64,000 nucleotides of DNA from NCBI GenBank assembly GCA_036262055.1, contig DATAJP010000002.1, forward strand, positions 392,177-456,176, written 5' to 3'. Shown piece after piece: positions 11,295 to 25,371 of this stretch. The translations under genes were made by a program, and so were the position numbers. Source of the stretch: Ignavibacteria bacterium. Its GTDB lineage: Bacteria > Bacteroidota > Ignavibacteria > Tepidaquicellales > Tepidaquicellaceae. The stretch's first letter is position 1, and every line of letters begins with the position of its first letter. The notes under the pieces are model-generated. The model saw nothing but the letters and a program-made list of their open reading frames with translations, searched no databases and was not told the origin of the DNA.

Positions 11295-11380
11295 GCCCGG
11301 GTGGCGGAACTGGTAGACGCGCAGGACTTAAAATCCTGTTGCCTGTAAAGGCAGTGCCGGTTCGATTCCGGCCCCGGGCA
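11295..11380 (+). tRNA. tRNA-Leu (UAA)
   Basis: The sequence folds as a class II tRNA. The acceptor strands GCCCGGG and CCCGGGC pair, the D arm is TGGCGGAACTGGTAGACGCG, the anticodon loop CTTAAAA carries TAA, a long variable arm follows (TGCCTGTAAAGGCAG), and the T arm is GCCGGTTCGATTCCGGC. The long variable arm and the anticodon identify leucine. CCA is not encoded. The 3' part of this gene is repeated exactly at 21933-21993. Confidence 0.97.
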
Positions 11381-11382
11381 CA
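11322..11382 (+). repeat. Left attachment repeat (attL), inside tRNA-Leu
   Basis: These 61 bases run from the anticodon arm (CAGGACTTAAAATCC) to the bases just after the tRNA end (GGGCACA) and are identical to 21933-21993. Recombination here left the tRNA functional, as usual for tRNA-targeting tyrosine recombinases. Confidence 0.9.
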
Positions 11383-11385
11383 CAC

Positions 11386-11420
11386 AAGACCTTTTGATTA
11401 TTAAATTGAAAGGTCTTTTT
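11386..11420 (+). terminator. Terminator after tRNA-Leu
   Basis: AAGACCTTT and AAAGGTCTT form a 9-bp stem followed by TTTCTTTTT. It would end the tRNA transcript. Confidence 0.75.
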
Positions 11421-11449
11421 CTTTTTAGATTTAAAACTTCTCAATTTTT

Positions 11450-11482
11450 GTCCTGCGTTTCTACCAGTTCCTGCCACCCGGG
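11450..11482 (-). repeat. Degenerate inverted copy of the tRNA-Leu 5' half
   Basis: Read on the minus strand, these 33 bases reproduce tRNA positions 11296-11327 (CCCGGGTGGC ... GGAACTGGTAGA ... CGCAGGAC) with one inserted base and two substitutions. The copy covers the acceptor 5' strand, the D arm and the start of the anticodon arm, and lies only 70 bases past the tRNA end. Confidence 0.8.
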
Positions 11483-11518
11483 GTTCTAGGAATAATCTCT
11501 TATCACACTTTACAAGCT

Positions 11519-11540
11519 TGTATTTAGACTGTATTTAAAA
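11519..11540 (+). other. Tandem TGTATTTA motif, left end of island
   Basis: TGTATTTA at 11519 and TGTATTTAAAA at 11530 are spaced by 11 bp. A matching pair stands near the right end at 21869-21891. Paired short direct repeats inside both ends are what arm-type integrase binding sites look like; the assignment is inference. Confidence 0.4.
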
Positions 11541-11593
11541 ATGCAATTAAGAATTGTTTTAAGATTCAAAGATTTGAAATAAATTTTATTTAT

Positions 11594-11740
11594 TCAGATT
11601 AACAGAATTGAAACGATTCTGTTTAGATTTTAATAAGATTATAGACAGACGTTCTCAGAGTCGTTTGTTTTGTTGTGACCATATAGATTATATGTTTTTG
11701 AAAAGCTCGTTAATCTGACAACGTCTATTATTAAAATCTA
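11594..11740. other. Cluster of inverted repeats in island left non-coding region
   Basis: Three nested structures are visible. AACAGAAT / ATTCTGTT has a 7-base loop (11601-11623). TAGATTTTAATA...AGACGTT at 11624-11652 is repeated inverted at 11720-11740. CATATA-GAT-TATATG lies in the middle (11680-11694). TCAGATTAAC at 11594 is also repeated inverted at 11709-11718. The 11421-11900 gap has no gene; this cluster and the inverted tRNA half are its only recognisable contents. It could be a structured RNA, a recombination site or a MITE remnant. Confidence 0.5.
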
Positions 11741-11900
11741 CAATATTCTATTTTTTTCAGAGTTTATAAATATTAAAATGATTTGAATTAGAGTTGAAAA
11801 AGAGAAAAAATTGAGGGACTTTTATAAAATGCTGCATCAATATCCTATTTATATAATACAAATTTTAAATAGTACATCTGTACTTTAATAAAGCAACATA

Positions 11901-13352
11901 ATGTTAGATTTATTTTCACATCTTACTAAAAATGAAATTATTGAGTTTGAGAAGTTCATAAAATCTCCTTATTATAACACCGATAAAACTATAGTAAAAA
12001 TTTTTGAAAATCTTAAAAAAATTAATGCTAATTATAATTCTGATTTAAATTCGGAGACTGAGCTTTTTAAAGAACTAAATTTAGATAATTCCAAAAGAAA
12101 TCGGCTTTCAAAACAATTTCGTTCGTTGTTGAAGTATTTTCTAAAATTAAAGGAGTTTGAAAAAGATGAAAACACTAATATGATGTATGAGCTTAGAGCT
12201 TTGCGAGAAAAGAAGTTTACAACTCACTATAAGAAAAAATTAAATGAATTTATAAAAATTTTTGATAATAAATTTAAACGAGATGAAAACTATTATTCAA
12301 ACAGAATTATAATTGAAGATGATTATTACAACTTTACAATTAATGAAAAAGCTCTAGATTATCCTGATATTTTAAATACCAAGCGAGATAACATTATTTA
12401 TAATTTTTATTTCCAGTTGTTACATTGTTATAATGATATGATATTGCATGAGGAGTATGCCGGTAAGAAATTTGACCTTAAGTTTCCATATTTAAATGAA
12501 ATTTTGAATGACATTAAATTAAATTTTGAAAAAATACAAAATGAACATCCAAATATTTGCATTATCTATTATATTATATCAATTCAGTTGAGTATGAGAA
12601 AAAACCAATCTACAATAGAATTAGAAAAATTATATTTAAAATATTTAGAAGCCAATCTAAATAAGTTTGACAAAACACAACTTTTCCATTATTATTTATA
12701 TATAGTAAATTATTATATACTAATGCTCCATAAAGGTAATTATGACTATAGACAGAAATTATTTGATATTTATTTTTTTCAAGAAAAAAATGATTTCTTG
12801 TTATTAAATAATGAAATTAATGCTGAATCTTTTAGAGATGTGGTTTCTATTGCAACCTCAACCGGAAATTTAGACTGGGCGCAATACTTTATCGAAAAAT
12901 ATAAAAAATTGTTAAATTATGATAAAAACAAAGATTTTATAAATTTATCTTATGCAAAAATTTATTTTATAAAAAAGAATTATAACAAAAGCATCTCTCA
13001 TTTAATATTAGTCGGTTCAAGGAACATATCTAATTATGTAAGTGCTAAAATAATTTTTTGTAAAATTTATTATGAACAGAAAAATATTTCTGCAATTGAA
13101 TTCGAATTGGACAATTTAAGAAAACTTGAAAAACGAAATAAAAAAATTAATGAGCTTAATAAAAGTTCAATTGATAATTTCACAAAATATATTAAACAAT
13201 TAATAAAAATAAACACCTTGGAATTTATGCATGATAAAAAATTTCAGGAATTAGCTGAATTTAGTTATGATGAAATTAATAAACTTCATTATTTTATTCC
13301 CGAAAAAAATTGGTTTTTAGAAAAATTCCAAAGCAAATTTAAAAATAAATAA
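11901..13352 (+). CDS. Large AT-rich helical protein of unknown function
   Basis: This 483-residue protein is rich in Lys, Asn, Ile, Tyr and Phe and has visibly lower GC than flanking chromosomal genes. There is no signal peptide or membrane segment. The N terminus (LTKNEIIEFEKFIKSPYYN) resembles a class of Bacteroidota/Ignavibacteria hypothetical proteins with a conserved F.KFI.SP.YN start. The rest looks like irregular helical, TPR-like repeats. I see no Arg-His-Arg-Tyr pattern of a tyrosine recombinase and no DDE or HUH motif. It is the first gene inside the island and the only one without an export signal, so a regulatory or maintenance role is conceivable but unproven. Confidence 0.8.
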   Translation: MLDLFSHLTKNEIIEFEKFIKSPYYNTDKTIVKIFENLKKINANYNSDLNSETELFKELNLDNSKRNRLSKQFRSLLKYFLKLKEFEKDENTNMMYELRALREKKFTTHYKKKLNEFIKIFDNKFKRDENYYSNRIIIEDDYYNFTINEKALDYPDILNTKRDNIIYNFYFQLLHCYNDMILHEEYAGKKFDLKFPYLNEILNDIKLNFEKIQNEHPNICIIYYIISIQLSMRKNQSTIELEKLYLKYLEANLNKFDKTQLFHYYLYIVNYYILMLHKGNYDYRQKLFDIYFFQEKNDFLLLNNEINAESFRDVVSIATSTGNLDWAQYFIEKYKKLLNYDKNKDFINLSYAKIYFIKKNYNKSISHLILVGSRNISNYVSAKIIFCKIYYEQKNISAIEFELDNLRKLEKRNKKINELNKSSIDNFTKYIKQLIKINTLEFMHDKKFQELAEFSYDEINKLHYFIPEKNWFLEKFQSKFKNK

Positions 13353-13408
13353 GGTATGCCCTTTTTGGCGGGTCCCACCTCCTCTAAGGGGTCCGGCAGG
13401 GCATACCT
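13352..13408. terminator. Hairpin between convergent genes
   Basis: AGGTATGCCCT and its reverse complement AGGGCATACCT (11 bp) enclose about 35 bases rich in G and C, with T-rich runs outside on each strand. This fits a bidirectional terminator, although the loop is long. An AGGGCAT-containing structure also follows the gene at 17801-19816. Confidence 0.55.
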
Positions 13409-13417
13409 GAATTTTTA

Positions 13418-15121
13418 TTATTTTACAAGCACAAGTTTTTTTGTAATAATCTGATTTTCCGTTTTTAATCTATAAAAATAAATCCCGCTGGAATATTTAG
13501 ACGCATCCCATTTAACTATATGATTTCCCGCATTCAAATATTGTTTTATTAATGATTCTATCTGTCTTCCGCTTATGTCATAAATTGCAAGTTCAACAAA
13601 CTGTTGCGCAGGAAGCGTGAAACTAATGTTAGAAACGGGATTAAATGGGTTGGGATAATTTGTAACTGTTGTTTCTTCACCTATTATTCCGGGAATAATT
13701 CGTTTAGTTCTTATAATTTCAGGTTGTATTGAATGCAATACTTTACCTTCTCGATTGTATTTTTGACCCGCAATGAATGAATTGCTATCATTGTAGCCAA
13801 ATGCAATCATAGTTATGTTTCCATTTTTATCTGCTGCACAATAAGTATATTTTTTCATTTGTCCCAAGTTATTATTACCCAAATTTGGTATATATCTGCC
13901 AACCCAAACAGGTTCTGCATTTTCCCATGAATCTACAATACCTACATTAAATCCTACAGCAACATACTCATTAACAATAGAACTACTATATCCTGTTATA
14001 TAAAGAAGATCATTGCTGATTAAAAGAGAGGAAGGCTTATCATCTCCCTTTAATGCAAGATGATCATACCAAAGAGGAAAACCACTAACCATATTTCCAT
14101 TTGCTTCATATTTTAATATTGCGAAATCATATTCGCTCCTTCCTCGATGAGTATAACCCGCGGAATATATAAATTCATTATCACAAATTACACTTGTTAA
14201 AACATCATTGGTTGAATAATCTAAGGTGTCGTACCAATTATTACTTAAATTATTTCCATCAATATAGCAAGTAAAGAAGTTGTTGTTGCCCCCTGAGTAT
14301 TCCTGATGAACCGATAAAGACCTTTTGGATTTTAATATTGGATTTTGCGAGAAATCAGTTATGATATGACCGGTTGGGTATTCATTAGCAATGCTATTAT
14401 AAATAAATTCATTCCCAACTTTTGAGCCGGTGCTAATATCAAAATCAACCAATAATAAATCATAACCATAAGTACTTCCCTGATCAGTATATCCTGCTAC
14501 ATATATATAATAATCATCTGCAATAAGTGATGTGCCAACATCGGTTAATTTATCCGGAGAATCATAAGCGCCATCAAATTCATAGTTTCCGCTGTTATCT
14601 ACTACATATAAATAACAATCTACATTACCCGGATTAGTATAATACCCACAAATTGCTATATTATCCTCTGATAATTCTTTTATAGATAATCCGGCATCAT
14701 CTCCTGCATCATTAGGAATAACTACTGCCCACTGTGAATCTAATGAACTATTATATTTAGCAATAATAATATCATTAGTTGATGTATTGGAATTATAGTA
14801 AAATCCTGTTATAAGTATATTGCTCTCATGGTCAAGTGCTATAGACATTCCTTTATCCAAACCATCAATATTTTCTAAAAACTCTGATGTTAAATTACCA
14901 AAACCATCAATTTTTGCAATAAATATATCATTGGTTGAGTTAGCTGAATTATATGCCATCCCTGTTATATAAATGTTATCATTTCCATCTGAAATTGCAT
15001 GAAAAGGATAACCAACAGGAGGAAATTGAGCATAAATGTTATTGTTTGAAAATAATAGAAAGCTTAAAATTGAAAATAAGAATCCTATGCCCCATAACGA
15101 GAATTTTTTTTGTTTTGCCAT
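13418..15121 (-). CDS. T9SS-sorted SBBP-type beta-propeller protein
   Basis: The 567-residue protein has an N-terminal signal peptide (hydrophobic to about residue 32, ending NNNIYAQ) and about eight propeller-like repeats with wording such as NDIFIAKIDGFGN, NDIIIAKYNSS and DFAILKYEANGN, typical of SBBP repeats. The C-terminal sorting domain (about 485-567) contains NYPNPFNPVSNISFTLP and ends KKLVLVK. The sorting domain directs export through the outer membrane and attachment to the surface or release. The ligand of the propeller is unknown. It lies in a same-strand pair with the next gene inside the tRNA-Leu island. Confidence 0.88.
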   Translation of the reverse strand: MAKQKKFSLWGIGFLFSILSFLLFSNNNIYAQFPPVGYPFHAISDGNDNIYITGMAYNSANSTNDIFIAKIDGFGNLTSEFLENIDGLDKGMSIALDHESNILITGFYYNSNTSTNDIIIAKYNSSLDSQWAVVIPNDAGDDAGLSIKELSEDNIAICGYYTNPGNVDCYLYVVDNSGNYEFDGAYDSPDKLTDVGTSLIADDYYIYVAGYTDQGSTYGYDLLLVDFDISTGSKVGNEFIYNSIANEYPTGHIITDFSQNPILKSKRSLSVHQEYSGGNNNFFTCYIDGNNLSNNWYDTLDYSTNDVLTSVICDNEFIYSAGYTHRGRSEYDFAILKYEANGNMVSGFPLWYDHLALKGDDKPSSLLISNDLLYITGYSSSIVNEYVAVGFNVGIVDSWENAEPVWVGRYIPNLGNNNLGQMKKYTYCAADKNGNITMIAFGYNDSNSFIAGQKYNREGKVLHSIQPEIIRTKRIIPGIIGEETTVTNYPNPFNPVSNISFTLPAQQFVELAIYDISGRQIESLIKQYLNAGNHIVKWDASKYSSGIYFYRLKTENQIITKKLVLVK

Positions 15122-15170
15122 AATGTGATGATTTAAATTAATTAAAAGAGAATTGTATAAGAAATTGGAT

Positions 15171-17309
15171 TTACTTCATTAAAATCATTTTTTTAGTTTG
15201 AGAAAATACACCTGTCTTTAGTGTATAAAAATAAACTCCGCTGGGTAAAGCAGAGGCATTCCATGTTAGTTCATAATTTCCACTTTGCAAAGGTTTATTA
15301 ATCAGTATTGCAATTAATTTACCCGTAATATCATAAATACTTAAATTCACATTGACCCAAGGGGTACCCGACAATTGACTGTTCACACTTGACGGAATAT
15401 CAAACTCAATCTTCGTCACTGGATTAAACGGGTTTGGATAATTCTGTTTTAATTCATACTGCGTGACAATCTCATTATGATTTTCTTCAATGAAAGTTAA
15501 CCCACCGTTTGTTGTTTTTAAAATATTGCCCCAGTCACCAACTATATAACCGGTTTCGCTATTGATAAAGTCTATGCCATATAAAACACTATTAGTTGCA
15601 AATAATCTAAACCAGTTTAATCCTCCGTTAGTTGTTTTTACTAATAATTCCTGACCTGCATATCCCACTCCAATTCCTTCCATTTCGTTTCCAAAATATA
15701 AATCCTGAAATACCCATCCGCTTCTTGAAAATATTTGTGCCCATGTTTCACCTGAATTAGTCGTTTTGTACATTCTCGAACCGCTTCCCAGATACCCGGT
15801 ATTTTCATTTATGAAATATATAGCTCTTCCGTCTGCATTGGGTTGAATTATCCAATTAGTTCCTGCATTGGTTGTTCTTAACACTACAGTGCTTGAAATG
15901 GTTATGCCGGTATTTTCATTCATAAAATGGATTTTCCAAAACGTATCATTTTCAACACTATCTAATCTGAACCAGTTTAATCCTTCGTTTGTGGTTTTCA
16001 TCACAAGTCCAAGAGTTCCGCATATATATCCTGTTGACTGGTTTGTAAAATAAACATCATTCAAAATATTATTCCTTCCTGTAGATAAAGAAACCCAATT
16101 TTCACCTGAGTTAGTTGTTTTCAAAACCAGTCCCGTATCTCCGGCAATATATCCTGTCTGCTCATTTACAAAAAATATTGAGTTTAAATCTCTTTGAGTG
16201 TTTATGTTTTTTTGTATCCAGCTAGATCCTGAATTGTTTGTTTTATAAAACTCTCCCCATTCACCTATTGCAAACCCAGTGTTTTCATTTACAAAACGTA
16301 TGTCTAAGAAATCCCGCTTATAACCTGATTGCAGAAAATAATTTTCGCCGGAGTTTGTAGATTTAACTATTGTTCCACCACCACCTACTGCATAGATTTC
16401 GTTTTGGTTTACAAATACATCAAAAAGCACACCATGTATCTGAAAATTAGTTCTAAATGTTGTGTTTTGGATCCAATTTTGTCCACTATTTGTTGTTTTA
16501 CAAATACTTCCTCCATCAGAGACTAAATAACCTGTTTGGAGGTTTATAAAAGATATTGCTCTAACTTCATCAACTCCTCCGCTTACTATGTGCGGGAGAT
16601 TAACATCATAATAATTCCATAGTGCTCCTCCATTGCTTGTGTATGCAATTCTTTCATCTCCTCCGATTAAAAGATAGACATTATTAGAATCAATAATTGA
16701 GATATCATATATAATTGAAAAAGGTAAAGTAAAAGTTATCCCCATATCAAACCAGTTTGCTCCTGCATTTGTTGTTTTTATGCATTTAGCATTTCCCGAA
16801 GCATATCCTATATTTTCATTGGCAAATGCAACACATAGAAAGTTAGTACTTGTTCCTGAATTAAGATTAAACCAGTTAAACCCACCGTTGGTGGTTTTTA
16901 AAATCGTATTTGAATGTCCTGAAATATAACCGGTTATTGAATTTGTGAACGTTATGGTATTTAACAAAATAGTTTGTCCTGTATTTATAAGAGTCCAATT
17001 ATTACCACCATTGGTTGTTCTTAGTACTCTTCCTGAATCACCACACGCAATCACATTAATACTATCAAATAAATAGAAAGAACGAATTAATGTAGTGACT
17101 CCGGAATTTTGATTAAACCAGTTATTTCCACCATTTGTCGTCTTCAAAATTGTTCCTGAATGTCCGCAAGCATAACCCGTTTGGGAATTGTAAAACTTTA
17201 CATCATCCAATCCGTTTCCATTTGGCAATGGCATCTGCCATGTCCACTGAGTTTGTGCATTTAAATTATATGTTAATGTTAGAAGCAAAATTATGAATAA
17301 GTTTTTCAT
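15171..17309 (-). CDS. T9SS-sorted YCF48/BNR-like repeat protein
   Basis: The 712-residue protein has signal peptide MKNLFIILLLTLTYNLNAQ, then about 14 repeats of roughly 40-45 residues of the form TGY..G..G.I.KTTNGG.NW. This is the YCF48/sialidase-BNR beta-propeller pattern, here enough for two propellers. The C-terminal sorting domain (about 615-712) has NYPNPFNPVTKIEFDIP and ends KKMILMK. The repeats are well conserved within the gene, suggesting recent internal duplication. It reads away from the gene at 17801, sharing a 490-base intergenic region with three copies of a 23-bp motif. Confidence 0.9.
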   Translation of the reverse strand: MKNLFIILLLTLTYNLNAQTQWTWQMPLPNGNGLDDVKFYNSQTGYACGHSGTILKTTNGGNNWFNQNSGVTTLIRSFYLFDSINVIACGDSGRVLRTTNGGNNWTLINTGQTILLNTITFTNSITGYISGHSNTILKTTNGGFNWFNLNSGTSTNFLCVAFANENIGYASGNAKCIKTTNAGANWFDMGITFTLPFSIIYDISIIDSNNVYLLIGGDERIAYTSNGGALWNYYDVNLPHIVSGGVDEVRAISFINLQTGYLVSDGGSICKTTNSGQNWIQNTTFRTNFQIHGVLFDVFVNQNEIYAVGGGGTIVKSTNSGENYFLQSGYKRDFLDIRFVNENTGFAIGEWGEFYKTNNSGSSWIQKNINTQRDLNSIFFVNEQTGYIAGDTGLVLKTTNSGENWVSLSTGRNNILNDVYFTNQSTGYICGTLGLVMKTTNEGLNWFRLDSVENDTFWKIHFMNENTGITISSTVVLRTTNAGTNWIIQPNADGRAIYFINENTGYLGSGSRMYKTTNSGETWAQIFSRSGWVFQDLYFGNEMEGIGVGYAGQELLVKTTNGGLNWFRLFATNSVLYGIDFINSETGYIVGDWGNILKTTNGGLTFIEENHNEIVTQYELKQNYPNPFNPVTKIEFDIPSSVNSQLSGTPWVNVNLSIYDITGKLIAILINKPLQSGNYELTWNASALPSGVYFYTLKTGVFSQTKKMILMK

Positions 17310-17346
17310 TCAATACAAATTTAAATTATAAATTATTAAGATATAT

Positions 17347-17546
17347 GGACAATTTTTTGAAGTGGGACATATTAATAATAAGCTAAATCCATACAAATCA
17401 TATATTTAATTAGTTTTTATGGCATTTTTAATTGGAATGTCCAACTTCAATTTTCTGTCCCCCATTTTTGTTTAAAATAAGATGGAAATTACACTATTTT
17501 GTAAATTAACGATTCTTAAACTGCGTCCAACCTCAAAAATTTGTCC
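17347..17546. repeat. Three copies of a 23-bp TGTCC motif in a divergent promoter region
   Basis: Copies lie at 17347-17369 (minus), 17438-17460 (plus) and 17524-17546 (plus). Each is exactly 23 bases: TGTCC, then aACtTCA, then six variable A/T-rich bases, then tTGTCC. The gaps are 68 and 63 bases. They occupy the intergenic region between two divergent T9SS genes. Operator sites or transposase-binding repeats are both possible. The remainder of 17310-17800 is AT-rich with no gene. Confidence 0.7.
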
Positions 17547-17800
17547 AAAGTTTTTTAATAATTTTTAGATAAATTATGATGATAATGTTTAGTTGAGATT
17601 TTTAATTATAGAATTGATTTTATAAAAAAATAAAATTAAAATTTATTTAGGTTAAATTATTTTTGCTATGACAGCACTGTTTGAAAATAAAATTTTTTAA
17701 ATAGTAATATGCCCCGCATCAACTTTAAATCTATCATTCTATAAAAAAATAATCTTTACTGAATTTTTTGTGATTTTTAAATCTTAAAAAATTAATTCTT

Positions 17801-19816
17801 ATGAAGAAGATTATTTTTTTATTATTATTTTCATTTTCATATCTCAATTTATTTGCCGACAATTCCGATTCTCCGAAAACCATAAGACCATCAGATTTAG
17901 GTTTAACCGTTTTCAAGGGAAACCTGGATGAAAATCGTATGACACAAAAACAAAAAGACACCATTGTAATAGGGTTATTTAACTATCAGGATTATTTCAA
18001 AGATATTGCAGTATATTATAAATCAAAAAATGAACTGATTATATATAATAACAACGGAAACGGAACTTTAAGTGAATATAAAAATTACAAGCAGAGCAAG
18101 GAAATAAAAAAGATAACTCTTGTTAAAAAAACAAATTCAGAATTGATGAATTCGTTTATGTCACGGTTTGATGATTTAGAGATAGAGTTTTCTACGGGAG
18201 AAAAAGAAGTTCTTCATAATTACAGGATTAACATATTGAATGAAAATGCTTCAAAGGTGCCTCTGAGAAATTTCCTTGATGATGGAAGAGTGTTTCTTTA
18301 CAGCTCTTCAATTACATTCAACGAAATGTGGGCAAGCTGGAGAAGCGGACAGCCGAATAATGGTCAGTCTATCGGGGACATAGATAATGACGGTAAGACA
18401 GAAGCAATATATACTTTTTATCCTATTTCAGATACATTATCATATCCGTTATATAAGCCAACTCGAGTGGTTGTATTTGAAAATATAACCCCTGAAACAT
18501 ACAGAATAGATTGGGATACAGTTTTGCAGCATGGCGGTTGGAATCATACGGAGTCCTTATTTGATTTTGATAGTAACGGAAAAAAAGAGTTTTTGTGCGT
18601 GGGTCCACGTATATTTACCGGGGAGCTTGCTGAAGGAGTATATGAATGTTTAGGACCGGGAGTTTATAAATTTTTTGATGCTTCGTTTAATAGAGCCAGA
18701 CCTATGTTTGACTTCATGCAAAAGGATTCAGTCAACATAAACGGTGATATTAAACAGGAATTTTGGATAAGTTATATGCCGGAAGAAAACAGCACTTACA
18801 TAATAAGAGAGAGATTTAAAACAAAATATGCAACGGAATATTTTTTTGATACCCAAGTCCCTATAAATGCGCGAAGTTTTATCTACAGCATATGTCCGGG
18901 TGATATTGATAACGACGGAAAGGACGAAGTTGTAATCGGTGATACACAGTGGGAAAGCGGATATGTCAATTATCTTGATTCAACCGGCAATACACCCTCA
19001 CAATGGCATGGATACAGCATAAAAGAAATTATAACTAATGCTCCAGTTTCCTGCGGGTATGCATTTTTGAAAGATTACGATAATGACGGCAAGAAAGAAA
19101 TAACGACTACAGGAATTGGAGACTCAAGCGGAAGCTTGGGGGTTATTAAACATACCGGAACACCCGGAGAAAATAATTTTCAAACAGTCTTCTACACTTT
19201 GCAAGGTATTAGAGCCGGACCTAATATGGGAATTGATACAGCTTCAATTGAAGGTAATTTTATAGTTCTTTATCCATGTATTGCATATTCTGAAGGTGGT
19301 ATTGGAAACCAGTTAACGAGCATTTACAAAAAACAATCTTTTTATGATTTTTCTTCGATTTATTTTAAAAGAATTGATTCAACGTCATTTGTAAGACCTG
19401 CTTTACATTATATGGATAATGATAATAAAATAAATATCATGACACCCTTAGGTAAGGTGATTTCTTCAACCCCGACCGGTGATTTTTTCTATACCAATTT
19501 TAAACAGTTTGGAACTGTAAATATTACAAATTATAACAACCCCGTTCCTGAAAATTTTAAGCTTTATCAAAATTATCCTAATCCATTTAATCCGATTACT
19601 AAAATTAAATTTGATATAAAGAAAAAAGCAGAAGTAAAATTAATTATTTATGACATAACGGGAAGAGTTGTTGAAAAACTTTTAGAAGGAATAAAAAATC
19701 CGGGAGAATATGAGTTTGCCTTTGACGGCTCAAATTTTTCATCCGGAATTTACTTCTATTCACTAATTATAGAAGGAAAAAAAATTGATACAAAAAAGAT
19801 GATTTTAATAAAATAG
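17801..19816 (+). CDS. T9SS-sorted FG-GAP/VCBS-like protein
   Basis: This 671-residue secreted protein has leader MKKIIFLLLFSFSYLNLFA. Three calcium-binding-style loops are evident: DIDNDGKTEAIY (about residue 194), DIDNDGKDEVVIG (about 368) and DYDNDGKKEITT (about 425), as in FG-GAP/integrin-alpha-type beta-propellers. The sorting domain near the end has NYPNPFNPITKIKFDI and finishes KKMILIK. It is followed by a structured spacer (19828-19912) and another exported propeller protein on the same strand, so the two are probably co-expressed. Confidence 0.88.
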   Translation: MKKIIFLLLFSFSYLNLFADNSDSPKTIRPSDLGLTVFKGNLDENRMTQKQKDTIVIGLFNYQDYFKDIAVYYKSKNELIIYNNNGNGTLSEYKNYKQSKEIKKITLVKKTNSELMNSFMSRFDDLEIEFSTGEKEVLHNYRINILNENASKVPLRNFLDDGRVFLYSSSITFNEMWASWRSGQPNNGQSIGDIDNDGKTEAIYTFYPISDTLSYPLYKPTRVVVFENITPETYRIDWDTVLQHGGWNHTESLFDFDSNGKKEFLCVGPRIFTGELAEGVYECLGPGVYKFFDASFNRARPMFDFMQKDSVNINGDIKQEFWISYMPEENSTYIIRERFKTKYATEYFFDTQVPINARSFIYSICPGDIDNDGKDEVVIGDTQWESGYVNYLDSTGNTPSQWHGYSIKEIITNAPVSCGYAFLKDYDNDGKKEITTTGIGDSSGSLGVIKHTGTPGENNFQTVFYTLQGIRAGPNMGIDTASIEGNFIVLYPCIAYSEGGIGNQLTSIYKKQSFYDFSSIYFKRIDSTSFVRPALHYMDNDNKINIMTPLGKVISSTPTGDFFYTNFKQFGTVNITNYNNPVPENFKLYQNYPNPFNPITKIKFDIKKKAEVKLIIYDITGRVVEKLLEGIKNPGEYEFAFDGSNFSSGIYFYSLIIEGKKIDTKKMILIK

Positions 19817-19827
19817 CTTTTAAAAAA

Positions 19828-19912
19828 GCAGGGCATTCCAAAAAATTGAAGACCGCTAAGTACTCAATCTAAACTGCCGAAGCAGTTCGCTTTGGTTTGC
19901 CCTTTTTTATTA
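19828..19912 (+). other. Structured spacer between two T9SS genes
   Basis: AGGGCATTCCA near the left pairs loosely with GGTTTGCCCTTTTTT on the right, and an inner AACTGC-CGAA-GCAGTT hairpin stands at 19872-19887. The T run after the right arm fits a terminator for the upstream gene. Confidence 0.5.
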
Positions 19913-19931
19913 ACCTAAAAAAAAATAAACA

Positions 19932-21797
19932 ATGAAAAAATTCATTAAAAACCCCGCATTTCTATTTTTATTTTTTGTTATGTTTTCATCACAAATTTCA
20001 CTTTCTCAGGACGATGGCGAAGGCGCGCCTCCCTCTTATTTTAACACCGGGAGCATCAGCACGGTTGACTGGGGAGGACAAAATGCTACAAACTATTTTT
20101 CTTTGCAGGAAATTTCCACAAGCCGTCTTGATGTGGGTTCATCTTTAAATTCTACCGATTTTACCCTAACATACCGATTAGGAAAATGGGCTCCAAATAA
20201 TGGAAGTGGTAGTCTGGGTTCTCCTTCAAGTGCATTTTATTCTGAAAATCCGTCTCAATATGATTTAAACCAGTTCAGAGGAATGGTTGCGGTAAGATTA
20301 AGAAACAGCACAACAAAAAAGGACATAGTAACAATTCAAAATGATAATATGCGTGTATTCTGGAATAACAATAATACAATAACGGGACAACAGCAAAGTT
20401 TCAGTGTTAGTTCTTCATATATTGAAAAGGGTTCATTTAATCAAGAAGATACATATGAGGATATAATAATAGTTCAATCAAATGGAATTAAAGTTTATTA
20501 TAATCAGTATGATGGATATTTAAACACAACGCCCTATTCTTTTACTTGCAGCGCAACCAAGATAAAACTAAAGCAGATAAATGAACATATCTTTTTCCCT
20601 TCAAACACATCAGATAGAGATGATTTAATTTTGATTTCTAATGGTTATGTAAAAGTTTACTTAAATACAGGTAGTAATACATTCAATTCTTCAGCCTTTG
20701 CAGACATTAATACCGGTATGAGTTACATTCAGGATTTATTTGTTGAAGACGTCAACAATGATGGCTATAATGATATAATAGTTGCATCCAATGATAATGT
20801 TGCAAAAGTATATTTAAATAATTTAGGCAGTTCGGTTGACGGAACTGCAGACTGGACACTTAGCAGTTCAAGCTATATCCCATCTCTTCCATTAATTTTT
20901 TCAAAAGATATTAATAAAGATGGTTATAATGACCTGGTTTTTGTCGGTGCATATGGTCATACAAGTGTTTTTATCAATACAGCTTCGAGCGGACTATTTA
21001 ACTCAACATCTGAACAAACTTTCTCAAGTATCTCAGGCTGGGGTACAGGAGCTTCCGTATTTAACAAAATTGAAGGAGCTGATATGTATAATACCGGAGG
21101 TATTGCTCTTGTCGCAAGCTATGGCACATATACTAAAATGATGAACTCAACAAACTTTGATCCTGCTCCTCCCCCTCCGTCTGTTCGTGCAAGCCATATT
21201 AGCAGCGGAAATTTTTATCATCCTAAAATACATTTAAAAAATCGCGATGAAAGAGACTTTAATACTTATAAAATATATAAGCTTGACACCGGTGATGTTT
21301 CATACCAATATATTGGTTCAACATCGGGTGATAATTATGTTGATTATACTGAAAATATTTTTGTAGGACCGGGTGAATTGCAAAGTTATGGAACTATTTC
21401 ATATAAAGTAACAATGGTTGATAATAGTTCGCAAGAATCTGGTTTTTCAAAACAAATGAATTATGTAATTCATTCTGATTATTTGCCAGATACTTATTCT
21501 GAAAACACCGAGACAATAATGGGTATTACTCCTGACAAATATGCTTTAGAAAATTATCCAAATCCATTTAATCCTGTTACAAAAGTATATTATCTAATTC
21601 CACAAGAAGGATTTGTTAATATAACAGTGTATAATTACTTAGGACAGGTTGTAAGTGTATTAGTTAATAAACATCATTCCACACCTGGAGCATATTATGT
21701 AGATTTCAATGGTTCAAACTTAGCAAGTGGTATTTACTTCTGCAGAATACAAACAGGCAATTTTGTTCAGACTAAACGTATGATGTTAATTAAATAA
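19932..21797 (+). CDS. T9SS-sorted VCBS-like protein
   Basis: The 621-residue protein has a signal peptide ending near SSQISLSQ and repeated strand-rich modules with DVNNDGYNDIIVAS (about residue 275) and DINKDGYNDLVFVG (about 330), again FG-GAP/VCBS-like calcium loops. The later part (about residues 400-520), before the sorting domain, resembles a fibronectin-like module (TYKIYKLDTGDVSYQYIG). The C-terminal domain has NYPNPFNPVTKVYYLIP and ends KRMMLIK. It is the last gene before the orphan tRNA fragment and is closed by its own terminator. Confidence 0.88.
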   Translation: MKKFIKNPAFLFLFFVMFSSQISLSQDDGEGAPPSYFNTGSISTVDWGGQNATNYFSLQEISTSRLDVGSSLNSTDFTLTYRLGKWAPNNGSGSLGSPSSAFYSENPSQYDLNQFRGMVAVRLRNSTTKKDIVTIQNDNMRVFWNNNNTITGQQQSFSVSSSYIEKGSFNQEDTYEDIIIVQSNGIKVYYNQYDGYLNTTPYSFTCSATKIKLKQINEHIFFPSNTSDRDDLILISNGYVKVYLNTGSNTFNSSAFADINTGMSYIQDLFVEDVNNDGYNDIIVASNDNVAKVYLNNLGSSVDGTADWTLSSSSYIPSLPLIFSKDINKDGYNDLVFVGAYGHTSVFINTASSGLFNSTSEQTFSSISGWGTGASVFNKIEGADMYNTGGIALVASYGTYTKMMNSTNFDPAPPPPSVRASHISSGNFYHPKIHLKNRDERDFNTYKIYKLDTGDVSYQYIGSTSGDNYVDYTENIFVGPGELQSYGTISYKVTMVDNSSQESGFSKQMNYVIHSDYLPDTYSENTETIMGITPDKYALENYPNPFNPVTKVYYLIPQEGFVNITVYNYLGQVVSVLVNKHHSTPGAYYVDFNGSNLASGIYFCRIQTGNFVQTKRMMLIK

Positions 21798-21824
21798 TTA
21801 ATTTTACAGTTAATATATTAAATT

Positions 21825-21857
21825 AAAGAACGTCTTAAATTTTTTGGACGTTCTTTT
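21825..21857 (+). terminator. Rho-independent terminator
   Basis: AAAGAACGTC and GACGTTCTTT form a 10-bp stem with a 12-base loop and a short T run, 28 bases after the stop codon of the preceding gene. Confidence 0.8.
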
Positions 21858-21868
21858 CAAATAAACTC

Positions 21869-21891
21869 TGTATTTAAGAGTATATTTAAAA
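21869..21891 (+). other. Tandem TGTATTTA-like motif, right end of island
   Basis: TGTATTTAAGA at 21869 and TATATTTAAAA at 21881 mirror the pair at 11519-11540 near the left end. They are candidate arm-type recombinase sites. Confidence 0.35.
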
Positions 21892-21932
21892 GGGAGTTAA
21901 TTTAAGGACTGTATAGAACTGTTAACAGTTTA

Positions 21933-21993
21933 CAGGACTTAAAATCCTGTTGCCTGTAAAGGCAGTGCCGGTTCGATTCCGGCCCCGGGCACA
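21933..21993 (+). repeat. Right attachment repeat (attR), orphan tRNA-Leu 3' part
   Basis: These 61 bases are identical to 11322-11382. They hold the anticodon loop, variable arm, T arm and acceptor 3' strand but no acceptor 5' strand or D arm, so they cannot make a tRNA. Confidence 0.9.
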
Positions 21994-22003
21994 TAAAACC
22001 ACT

Positions 22004-22035
22004 AACCGCATTGATAACTTCAATGCGGTTTTTTT
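22004..22035 (+). terminator. Terminator after the orphan tRNA fragment
   Basis: AACCGCATTG and CAATGCGGTT form a perfect 10-bp stem followed by a T run. It is probably the ancestral tRNA-Leu terminator, displaced about 10.6 kb by the insertion. Confidence 0.85.
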
Positions 22036-22922: not shown

Positions 22923-24650
22923 TCATTTCACCAATAGCATCTTTCTCGTTTCAACAAAATCATTCACTTCAATCGTATAGTAATAAACTCCGCTTGAAAA
23001 TTTGTCGCCGTTCCAGATTGTCTCGTAGCTTCCCGCGTTGAGCTGTTCGTTCACAAGCGATGAAATTTTCTTTCCTGTTATATCATAAATAGAAATTTTC
23101 ACCACACCACTCTTAGGAATTTGAAATCCGATTTTTGTAACAGGATTGAACGGGTTCGGATAGTTCTGATGAAGAGAATATTTCTGCGGAACGATGCTTG
23201 AAATATTCTGCACCGAAACCACGTTTGGCGTTAGGTAAACTTTATAAATTATCGACGTTGCCGTGCTTCCCGCTCCGCGTCCGCGCTTTGATTTGTCATA
23301 CATCTGATGCATAAAAGAATTTTCCGACGTCGTTGCACTTGCATCTATTCCTCCATAGAGATAACCAACAAACGTTCTGTTGCTGAGCTGATTTACCTTT
23401 ATCACGCGATTGTTATACGTAGGAAGCGCCGTATCTATTATGAAATTCATTTCCGAACCTAAAGTTTTATTCTGCGGAAAGCGAATCGGTAGCAATGAGT
23501 CCTTATAAGAATTATTGCTGTATTTCGTGATAACCGAAATTAGATTTATAAACGGAATGCACGGTCCCCCGCACCCTGCTGTGTCGATGTAAGGAGTGTT
23601 CGTAAGCGTATCCAATGTCCATAAGCTAATGCCTCCGAAAAGCACCGTGCTCATTCGGTTGTAAACCGAATCATAGACTCCCAGATTAGCGCAGTCATAA
23701 TGAGAAAATCTTTGAGAGAAAGAATTATCCTGTGTCGCGCTCGTCAAAGAAACGTTCACGGGATTATTCCACGTAGAAACATCGTTTGTAAAAACTCCTC
23801 CATACAAACGAAGCTCAGGTAATCGCGTTGTGTTATTTATAACATCAACCACATTCAAATCCCTGCGATGAAGTATCGCTGGATTTGTGATGTGCGAAAG
23901 ATTTGCTATGCTTAAATTAACTCCGTCATCGACAATGTTAAAAGTTCTGATTTCATCGGTATATTTCTGAACACCGTTCTGAACTCCCGAACCTGAAAAT
24001 CCGTAAAGCCCCGTGAACTTTTGCCCGACACATAAAAGAAAAGTATTGTCAAGTCTTCTGAGCTTCCCTCCCGTAACCGCCATGTTGGTATCAATAATTG
24101 AACGCACAAAAGGTGCAATCGATGTTCCGTTTATCACCGCATTAATCGCACCGCTTATATTAATTGCAGTAAGTCGAGGAAAAGTAACCATCGAGTCTCT
24201 TCCCGGTGAGCTTAACGCGGAATCTTTTCCGTAACCACCGACAACATACAGCATATTTCCGAGAACTAAATATTGCAGATTAGTTGCGCGAAGCTGGTCG
24301 GCAACTCCCAAAGGTAAATCCGTATAAATATTTTTTGACCATCGCGTGTCTGTAACAGGATCATAAACATACATCATCTTATTTGCGAACACTGTCGGGA
24401 ACGCGGAGTTATTAACAGGTGACGGAAAATTATGAAGTCCGTTTGTTCTGCCTGCCATTAAAAGCCATTTACCATTCTGCTGTGCATATACATACGACTG
24501 AAGAGTTGGAGCATTTAATTGTGACACCTGCTCGACTTCAACCCTAAATGGAACTGCAAGCTGCTGTGCGAACACAGAACCATTATAGAAAAATAAATTA
24601 AGAAACCAAAGACCGGAAACAAAAAGCAATGAAGTTAAGGTTTTTTTCAT
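22923..24650 (-). CDS. T9SS-sorted kelch-like beta-propeller protein
   Basis: The 575-residue protein has a signal peptide ending near YNGSVFAQ. The body has kelch-like strands (KMMYVYDPVTDTRWSKNIY, GNMLYVVGGYGKD, LRLYGGVFTND, STVLFGGISLW), suggesting one six- or seven-bladed propeller. The sorting domain (about 500-575) has NYPNPFNPVTKIGFQIP and ends KMLLVK. It has higher GC than the island genes and lies outside the 61-bp repeats, so it belongs to the resident chromosome. A small GTCCCG/CGGGAC hairpin at 22884-22902 lies downstream. Confidence 0.87.
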   Translation of the reverse strand: MKKTLTSLLFVSGLWFLNLFFYNGSVFAQQLAVPFRVEVEQVSQLNAPTLQSYVYAQQNGKWLLMAGRTNGLHNFPSPVNNSAFPTVFANKMMYVYDPVTDTRWSKNIYTDLPLGVADQLRATNLQYLVLGNMLYVVGGYGKDSALSSPGRDSMVTFPRLTAINISGAINAVINGTSIAPFVRSIIDTNMAVTGGKLRRLDNTFLLCVGQKFTGLYGFSGSGVQNGVQKYTDEIRTFNIVDDGVNLSIANLSHITNPAILHRRDLNVVDVINNTTRLPELRLYGGVFTNDVSTWNNPVNVSLTSATQDNSFSQRFSHYDCANLGVYDSVYNRMSTVLFGGISLWTLDTLTNTPYIDTAGCGGPCIPFINLISVITKYSNNSYKDSLLPIRFPQNKTLGSEMNFIIDTALPTYNNRVIKVNQLSNRTFVGYLYGGIDASATTSENSFMHQMYDKSKRGRGAGSTATSIIYKVYLTPNVVSVQNISSIVPQKYSLHQNYPNPFNPVTKIGFQIPKSGVVKISIYDITGKKISSLVNEQLNAGSYETIWNGDKFSSGVYYYTIEVNDFVETRKMLLVK

Positions 24651-24861: not shown

Positions 24862-25371
24862 ATGAGACCCACCGAAAACGAATACGCAAGTTTTTATAAG
24901 CCGTACATAGATGAAGTTCCTGATGGAGACATAATTGTTATTTTAACCGAGCAGGGAAAAGAAGCAAGAAAGTTTTATCAGAGCATACCCGAAGCAATCG
25001 GGGCTCATGCATACCAGCCGGGCAAATGGACAATCAAAGAAGTTCTCGGGCATATGTGCGATGCCGAGCGTGTGATGGCATACCGCGCAATGTCCATAGC
25101 ACGAAATGAAAAAACACCTCTTCCCGGTTTTGATGAAAACGAATATATGAACCATTCGAATTTCAACCGGAGAACAATTCAGGATATTTCCGATGAAATG
25201 CTTTATATACGCGCATCGAACATTGCCTTGTTCGGTACATTTGATGAAGAAATTTTAAACCGTACGGGAAATGCAAACGGAAATAATGTTTCGGTAAGAG
25301 GACTATTGTATATAATATCAGGGCACGAACTTCACCATATAAAGGTATTGAGGGAAAGATATTTGAGATAA
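24862..25371 (+). CDS. DinB-like putative metal-dependent hydrolase
   Basis: This 169-residue protein matches the DinB_2 four-helix-bundle family. WTIKEVLGHMCDAERVMAYR near residues 52-71 and GHELHHIKVLRERY at the C terminus supply the histidine metal ligands. Some relatives are thiol transferases using bacillithiol or mycothiol; for most the reaction is unknown. An AAAGGA stretch stands before the ATG at 24862, one of the few recognisable ribosome-binding sites here. It is monocistronic and precedes the sugar locus by about 100 bases. Confidence 0.85.
   Translation: MRPTENEYASFYKPYIDEVPDGDIIVILTEQGKEARKFYQSIPEAIGAHAYQPGKWTIKEVLGHMCDAERVMAYRAMSIARNEKTPLPGFDENEYMNHSNFNRRTIQDISDEMLYIRASNIALFGTFDEEILNRTGNANGNNVSVRGLLYIISGHELHHIKVLRERYLR

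Follow-up and report, generated by a model that had tools for sequence, protein, structure and literature searches.

A probable stranded relic of an integrative element at tRNA-Leu(UAA) in an Ignavibacteria genome

RESULTS

A repeat-bounded block at tRNA-Leu(UAA)

We analyzed a 64-kb stretch of an Ignavibacteria genome (G000), referred to here as the window. Within it, a 10.6-kb block (positions 11383 to 21932) lies between a tRNA-Leu(UAA) gene and an orphan copy of the 3' part of the same tRNA. We believe that this block is most likely the stranded relic of a tyrosine-integrase element whose attachment gene was tRNA-Leu(UAA), and that it now holds T9SS cargo of its own lineage. Site-specific integration at this tRNA gene, the event named in the original prediction, is well supported by sequence comparison with an empty site in one relative (G003), a footprint with an integrase in a second (G007), and an orphan half with a decayed integrase in a third (G005).

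ARAGORN identified a single tRNA in the window, tRNA-Leu(taa). The gene is where it had been predicted, but its end lies one base beyond the expected 11380 (Table 1). Its 3' part and the orphan copy had been reported as identical over 61 bases, and we confirmed this match with no mismatch. The first base of the repeat is tRNA position 28, where the anticodon stem (CAGGA-CTTAAAA-TCCTG) begins, and the last lies one base beyond the tRNA 3' end. In a whole-genome search, strong matches to the tRNA 3' sequence occurred only at these two places (E 2e-25), which excludes a chance origin of the repeat. A whole-genome search with this region found only one close match that was a complete tRNA-Leu(UAA). 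The terminator claimed for each copy is also real, since a hairpin follows both. No further homology was found between the sequences flanking the two copies.

Both copies carry the T-stem variant GCCGG/CCGGC, which is absent from the 18 relatives listed; this implies that the repeat core came from the same lineage. As these 61 bp are presumably under no constraint, the lack of any difference between the copies suggests that the event was recent.

From this arrangement we infer the following order of events. An element carrying a tRNA 3' part and its own terminator would have recombined at the anticodon stem-loop, so that the tRNA was rebuilt on the left while the old 3' part and its terminator were pushed to the right. 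By analogy with G007 and G005, an integrase gene would be expected just within the right end; it would later have been lost or replaced. Without an integrase supplied in trans, the present block should be immobile.

Table 1. Features of the block and its borders, in window coordinates
Feature	Position	Strand	Remarks
tRNA-Leu(UAA), putatively restored at left end	11295..11381	+	ARAGORN
Left copy of 61-bp direct repeat (putative att core, left end)	11322..11382	+	61/61 identical to 21933-21993
Terminator hairpin behind left copy	11386..11417	+	z -5.9; would have come with the element
Inverted copy of tRNA 5' half (positions 2-33)	11450..11482	-	91% identical; 0/2000 shuffles reach score
i483, 483 aa, multicopy lineage family without Pfam match	11901..13352	+	G003 counterpart 39% identical
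i567, T9SS-tailed protein	13418..15121	-	PF18962 / TIGR04183; L148 counterpart 36% identical
i712, Ycf48-like T9SS-tailed protein	15171..17309	-	PF14870 + PF18962; G003 counterpart 46.5% identical
i671, FG-GAP T9SS-tailed protein	17801..19816	+	G003 counterpart 53% identical
i621, FG-GAP T9SS-tailed protein	19932..21797	+	G003 counterpart 56% identical
Right copy of 61-bp repeat (putative displaced tRNA 3' part)	21933..21993	+	61/61 identical to 11322-11382
Terminator hairpin behind right copy	22004..22030	+	z -8.1; probably the original tRNA terminator
DinB-like gene, first right-flank gene common with G003	24862..25371	+	52% identical; 1 kb from tRNA in G003

An empty site and integrase-bearing relatives

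The original prediction proposed looking for an empty site in related genomes. G003, from the sister genus, has an uninterrupted tRNA-Leu in the order 131-aa gene, tRNA, one 300-aa gene (i300), and DinB gene, with no extra tRNA pieces. The 131-aa gene on the left and DinB on the right are the neighbors common to this site and the window. This answers the proposal in part, as the site belongs to another genus, has a different terminator, and differs in its flanking genes, with i300 in place of R234 and R575 on the right and three extra genes on the left.

A close counterpart of the block was found in G007, which is of the same family. Here, the same tRNA is followed by a terminator, an inverted tRNA 5' half, a 23-kb island, and an orphan 3' half. 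G007 differs from G000 in that an intact tyrosine integrase lies 70 bp inside the right end, beside the orphan copy, and in its restriction and defense-type cargo. This cargo includes genes for type I restriction-modification, as well as an OLD-type ATPase adjoining a helicase-like gene; the latter arrangement may resemble Gabija. In G005, the orphan 3' half adjoins a broken integrase homologous to that of G007, and the intact and broken integrases belong to one family. The orphan halves of G007 and G005 start no more than 2 nucleotides from the start point in G000. A related integrase directly follows tRNA-Leu in G018 as well. Taken together, these cases mark tRNA-Leu(UAA) as a site of repeated integration in this Ignavibacteria family.

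Other tRNA rearrangements were seen in passing. At L128 (G016:C91) and L133 (G033:C3), integrases related to that of G007 are found close to tRNA-Arg genes with a second partial copy; these partial copies cover the 5' part (positions 1-68 and 1-56), as opposed to the 3' copies at tRNA-Leu. Broken extra tRNA-Leu copies, with the anticodon arm replaced by a TCCCG..CGGGA palindrome, were present in G004:C87, G006:C4, G018:C11, G026:C55 and C285, and G031:C12, and by eye in G008 and G019; most lie beside an intact tRNA-Leu(UAA). Two pairs of viral contig loci (L221/L264 and L236/L265) contain a tRNA-Leu with intron-like inserts interrupting its anticodon loop. Short peptide patterns for relatives of the G007 integrase gave no confirmed match in viral contigs.

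The cargo is native to the lineage

The interior holds five genes, one of the I483 family and four encoding T9SS-tailed proteins. Counterparts of i483, i712, i671, and i621 are clustered in G003 (C36:13.5-21.4 kb), some 150 kb away from its tRNA-Leu, with the i671-i621 pair inverted relative to the other counterparts and with no tRNA or tRNA-Leu piece in the cluster. The nearest counterpart of i567 is in a second, similar cluster. G008, G016, and G033 also have the i671-i621 pair in unchanged order, in each case away from any tRNA-Leu. These clustered counterparts and this recurring pair indicate that the cargo is native to the lineage. Rather than being foreign to their host, the genes are, as judged by their homologs, the lineage's own T9SS and I483-family genes. 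The original implication of a mobile, foreign island is not supported, given this native cargo and an interior with no integrase or recognized mobility gene. The cargo may have been captured between the att copies before integration, or it may have accumulated there afterwards.

A native cargo that is clustered elsewhere in G003, an integrase-free block, and a T-stem variant common to both copies would also fit the copying of a tRNA part together with a chromosomal T9SS cluster by ordinary recombination, that is, by segmental duplication or translocation with no integrase. We consider this quite unlikely, because the repeat runs exactly from the anticodon stem to the tRNA 3' end, starting almost where the repeats beside the integrases of G005 and G007 start, while no homology beyond the repeat was found between the two copies and the G003 cluster is free of tRNA sequence.

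The I483 family comprises proteins of about 480 amino acids, with many divergent copies per genome (at least 10 in the majority of the order's genomes); T9SS genes are often their neighbors. Inspection of i483 itself (window 11901-13352) and its relatives at L087-L105 and L147-L162 gave no convincing match in Pfam, PADLOC, or PDB, and the family is undescribed. A single-sequence AlphaFold model of i483 was mostly helical with a mean pLDDT of 51, too poor for a fold search. Short peptide patterns for further relatives in genome contigs gave none that could be confirmed.

No integrase in the block

Searches of the block with Pfam, NCBIfam, and tblastn using the G007 integrase returned no integrase, and the same tblastn query gave no trace of an integrase remnant near the right end or anywhere in the window. 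Among the five interior ORFs, Pfam and NCBIfam revealed no relaxase, conjugation, or phage structural genes; the ORFs had T9SS, FG-GAP, or Ycf48-like domains or belonged to no family. Arm-type direct repeats at both ends of the block were not above chance in G000 and were only suggestive at the island ends in G007.

The G000 genome encodes five tyrosine recombinases, all outside the block, two of which look Xer-like. The other three, together with the perfect repeats and the recent movement that they suggest, could fit a nonautonomous element that stays mobile through the trans action of an integrase encoded elsewhere in the cell or by another element; this is very unlikely, as the G007 integrase had no match among the three at E 1e-6, no tRNA was found in the 60 kb and 40 kb of sequence surrounding them, and the genome has a single tRNA-Leu footprint. 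Two related tyrosine integrases lie 27 kb apart in G000 (C2:1078370 and C2:1105011) with no tRNA nearby; Vsr-like and DNA cytosine methylase-like genes come after one of them.

An inverted tRNA 5' half behind the terminator

Just 3' of the first terminator, we identified an inverted copy of the tRNA 5' half that the original prediction did not contain. With its end at the first base of the anticodon loop, it meets the direct 3' copy at the presumed crossover point. It differs from the tRNA by two substitutions and one insertion, and with three differences it may be older than the direct repeat, although these are small numbers. If transcription reads through, base pairing is predicted between this copy and the tRNA 5' half.

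The same inverted half is found behind the terminator in G007 (27/27). Of 19 tRNA-Leu sites tested, only those of G000 and G007 had an inverted half above chance (0/2000 shuffles each); the candidate in G005 was not significant (p 0.09). Pattern searches of 391 class genomes, 44 order genomes, and viral contigs, using exact bases with a limited spacer (35-65 for the class and 62-92 for the order), recovered the inverted half only in G007 and G000, the remaining class matches being intact tRNAs or unrelated sequence. A narrow full-text literature search, by which absence is not shown, turned up no account of island ends bearing an inverted tRNA half.

The inverted half could be a built-in attP part of this integrase lineage, whose elements would carry both halves of the target in opposite orientations, for example, as a second core-type site or as a device capturing the tRNA 5' half in read-through transcripts. 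We regard this as unlikely. The inverted half is the one odd feature of an otherwise ordinary stranded island.

DISCUSSION

Weighing against a relic are the absent integrase or other mobility gene, an empty site that comes from another genus with differing flanks, the native cargo, and the lack of arm-type sites above chance in G000. We nevertheless favor the stranded relic, and comparison with known systems helps to place it. The Islander definition of tDNA islands requires an integrase gene, distinguishes crossover subsite classes, sets a length of 2-200 kb, and applies an orientation filter (PMC4383910). The G000 block resembles such islands in its apparently restored tRNA, its displaced 3' fragment in the same orientation, its anticodon-centered crossover, and its length. 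It differs in having no integrase, which the definition demands, in its extra inverted 5' fragment, a class that the orientation filter rejects, and in its native cargo. Thus, its ends work like those of a tDNA island, but it is not a complete member. The 10K island of Riemerella anatipestifer is a tested complete tDNA island, also about 10 kb long with perfect tRNA-borne direct repeats (53 bp), but it targets tRNA-Arg and has its own tyrosine integrase, which was shown to integrate and excise it (PMC6764341).

A clean tRNA/att footprint is therefore no proof of a foreign or mobile island, as here the frame is that of an integrative element and the filling is that of the lineage. Inverted half-tRNAs at island ends form a fragment class that filters such as Islander's would discard.

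The gene style of the interior had been described as different from that of the flanks, and this holds only in part. G+C content is 30% in the interior compared to 34% in the left flank and 38% in the right, but the drop comes mostly from one gene of 22% G+C, and T9SS-tailed genes also lie outside the block at 22923, 44264, 48783, and 51403. Past DinB, gene order is not colinear with G003 again until window coordinate 86.5 kb, a point about 75 kb from the tRNA in G000 versus 7 kb in G003. The stretch from 25400 to 64000 and on to about 86500 is largely without colinear G003 counterparts, and G003 has about 6 kb from DinB to the next shared gene. The repeat-bounded block is only the left edge of a variable region of about 75 kb.
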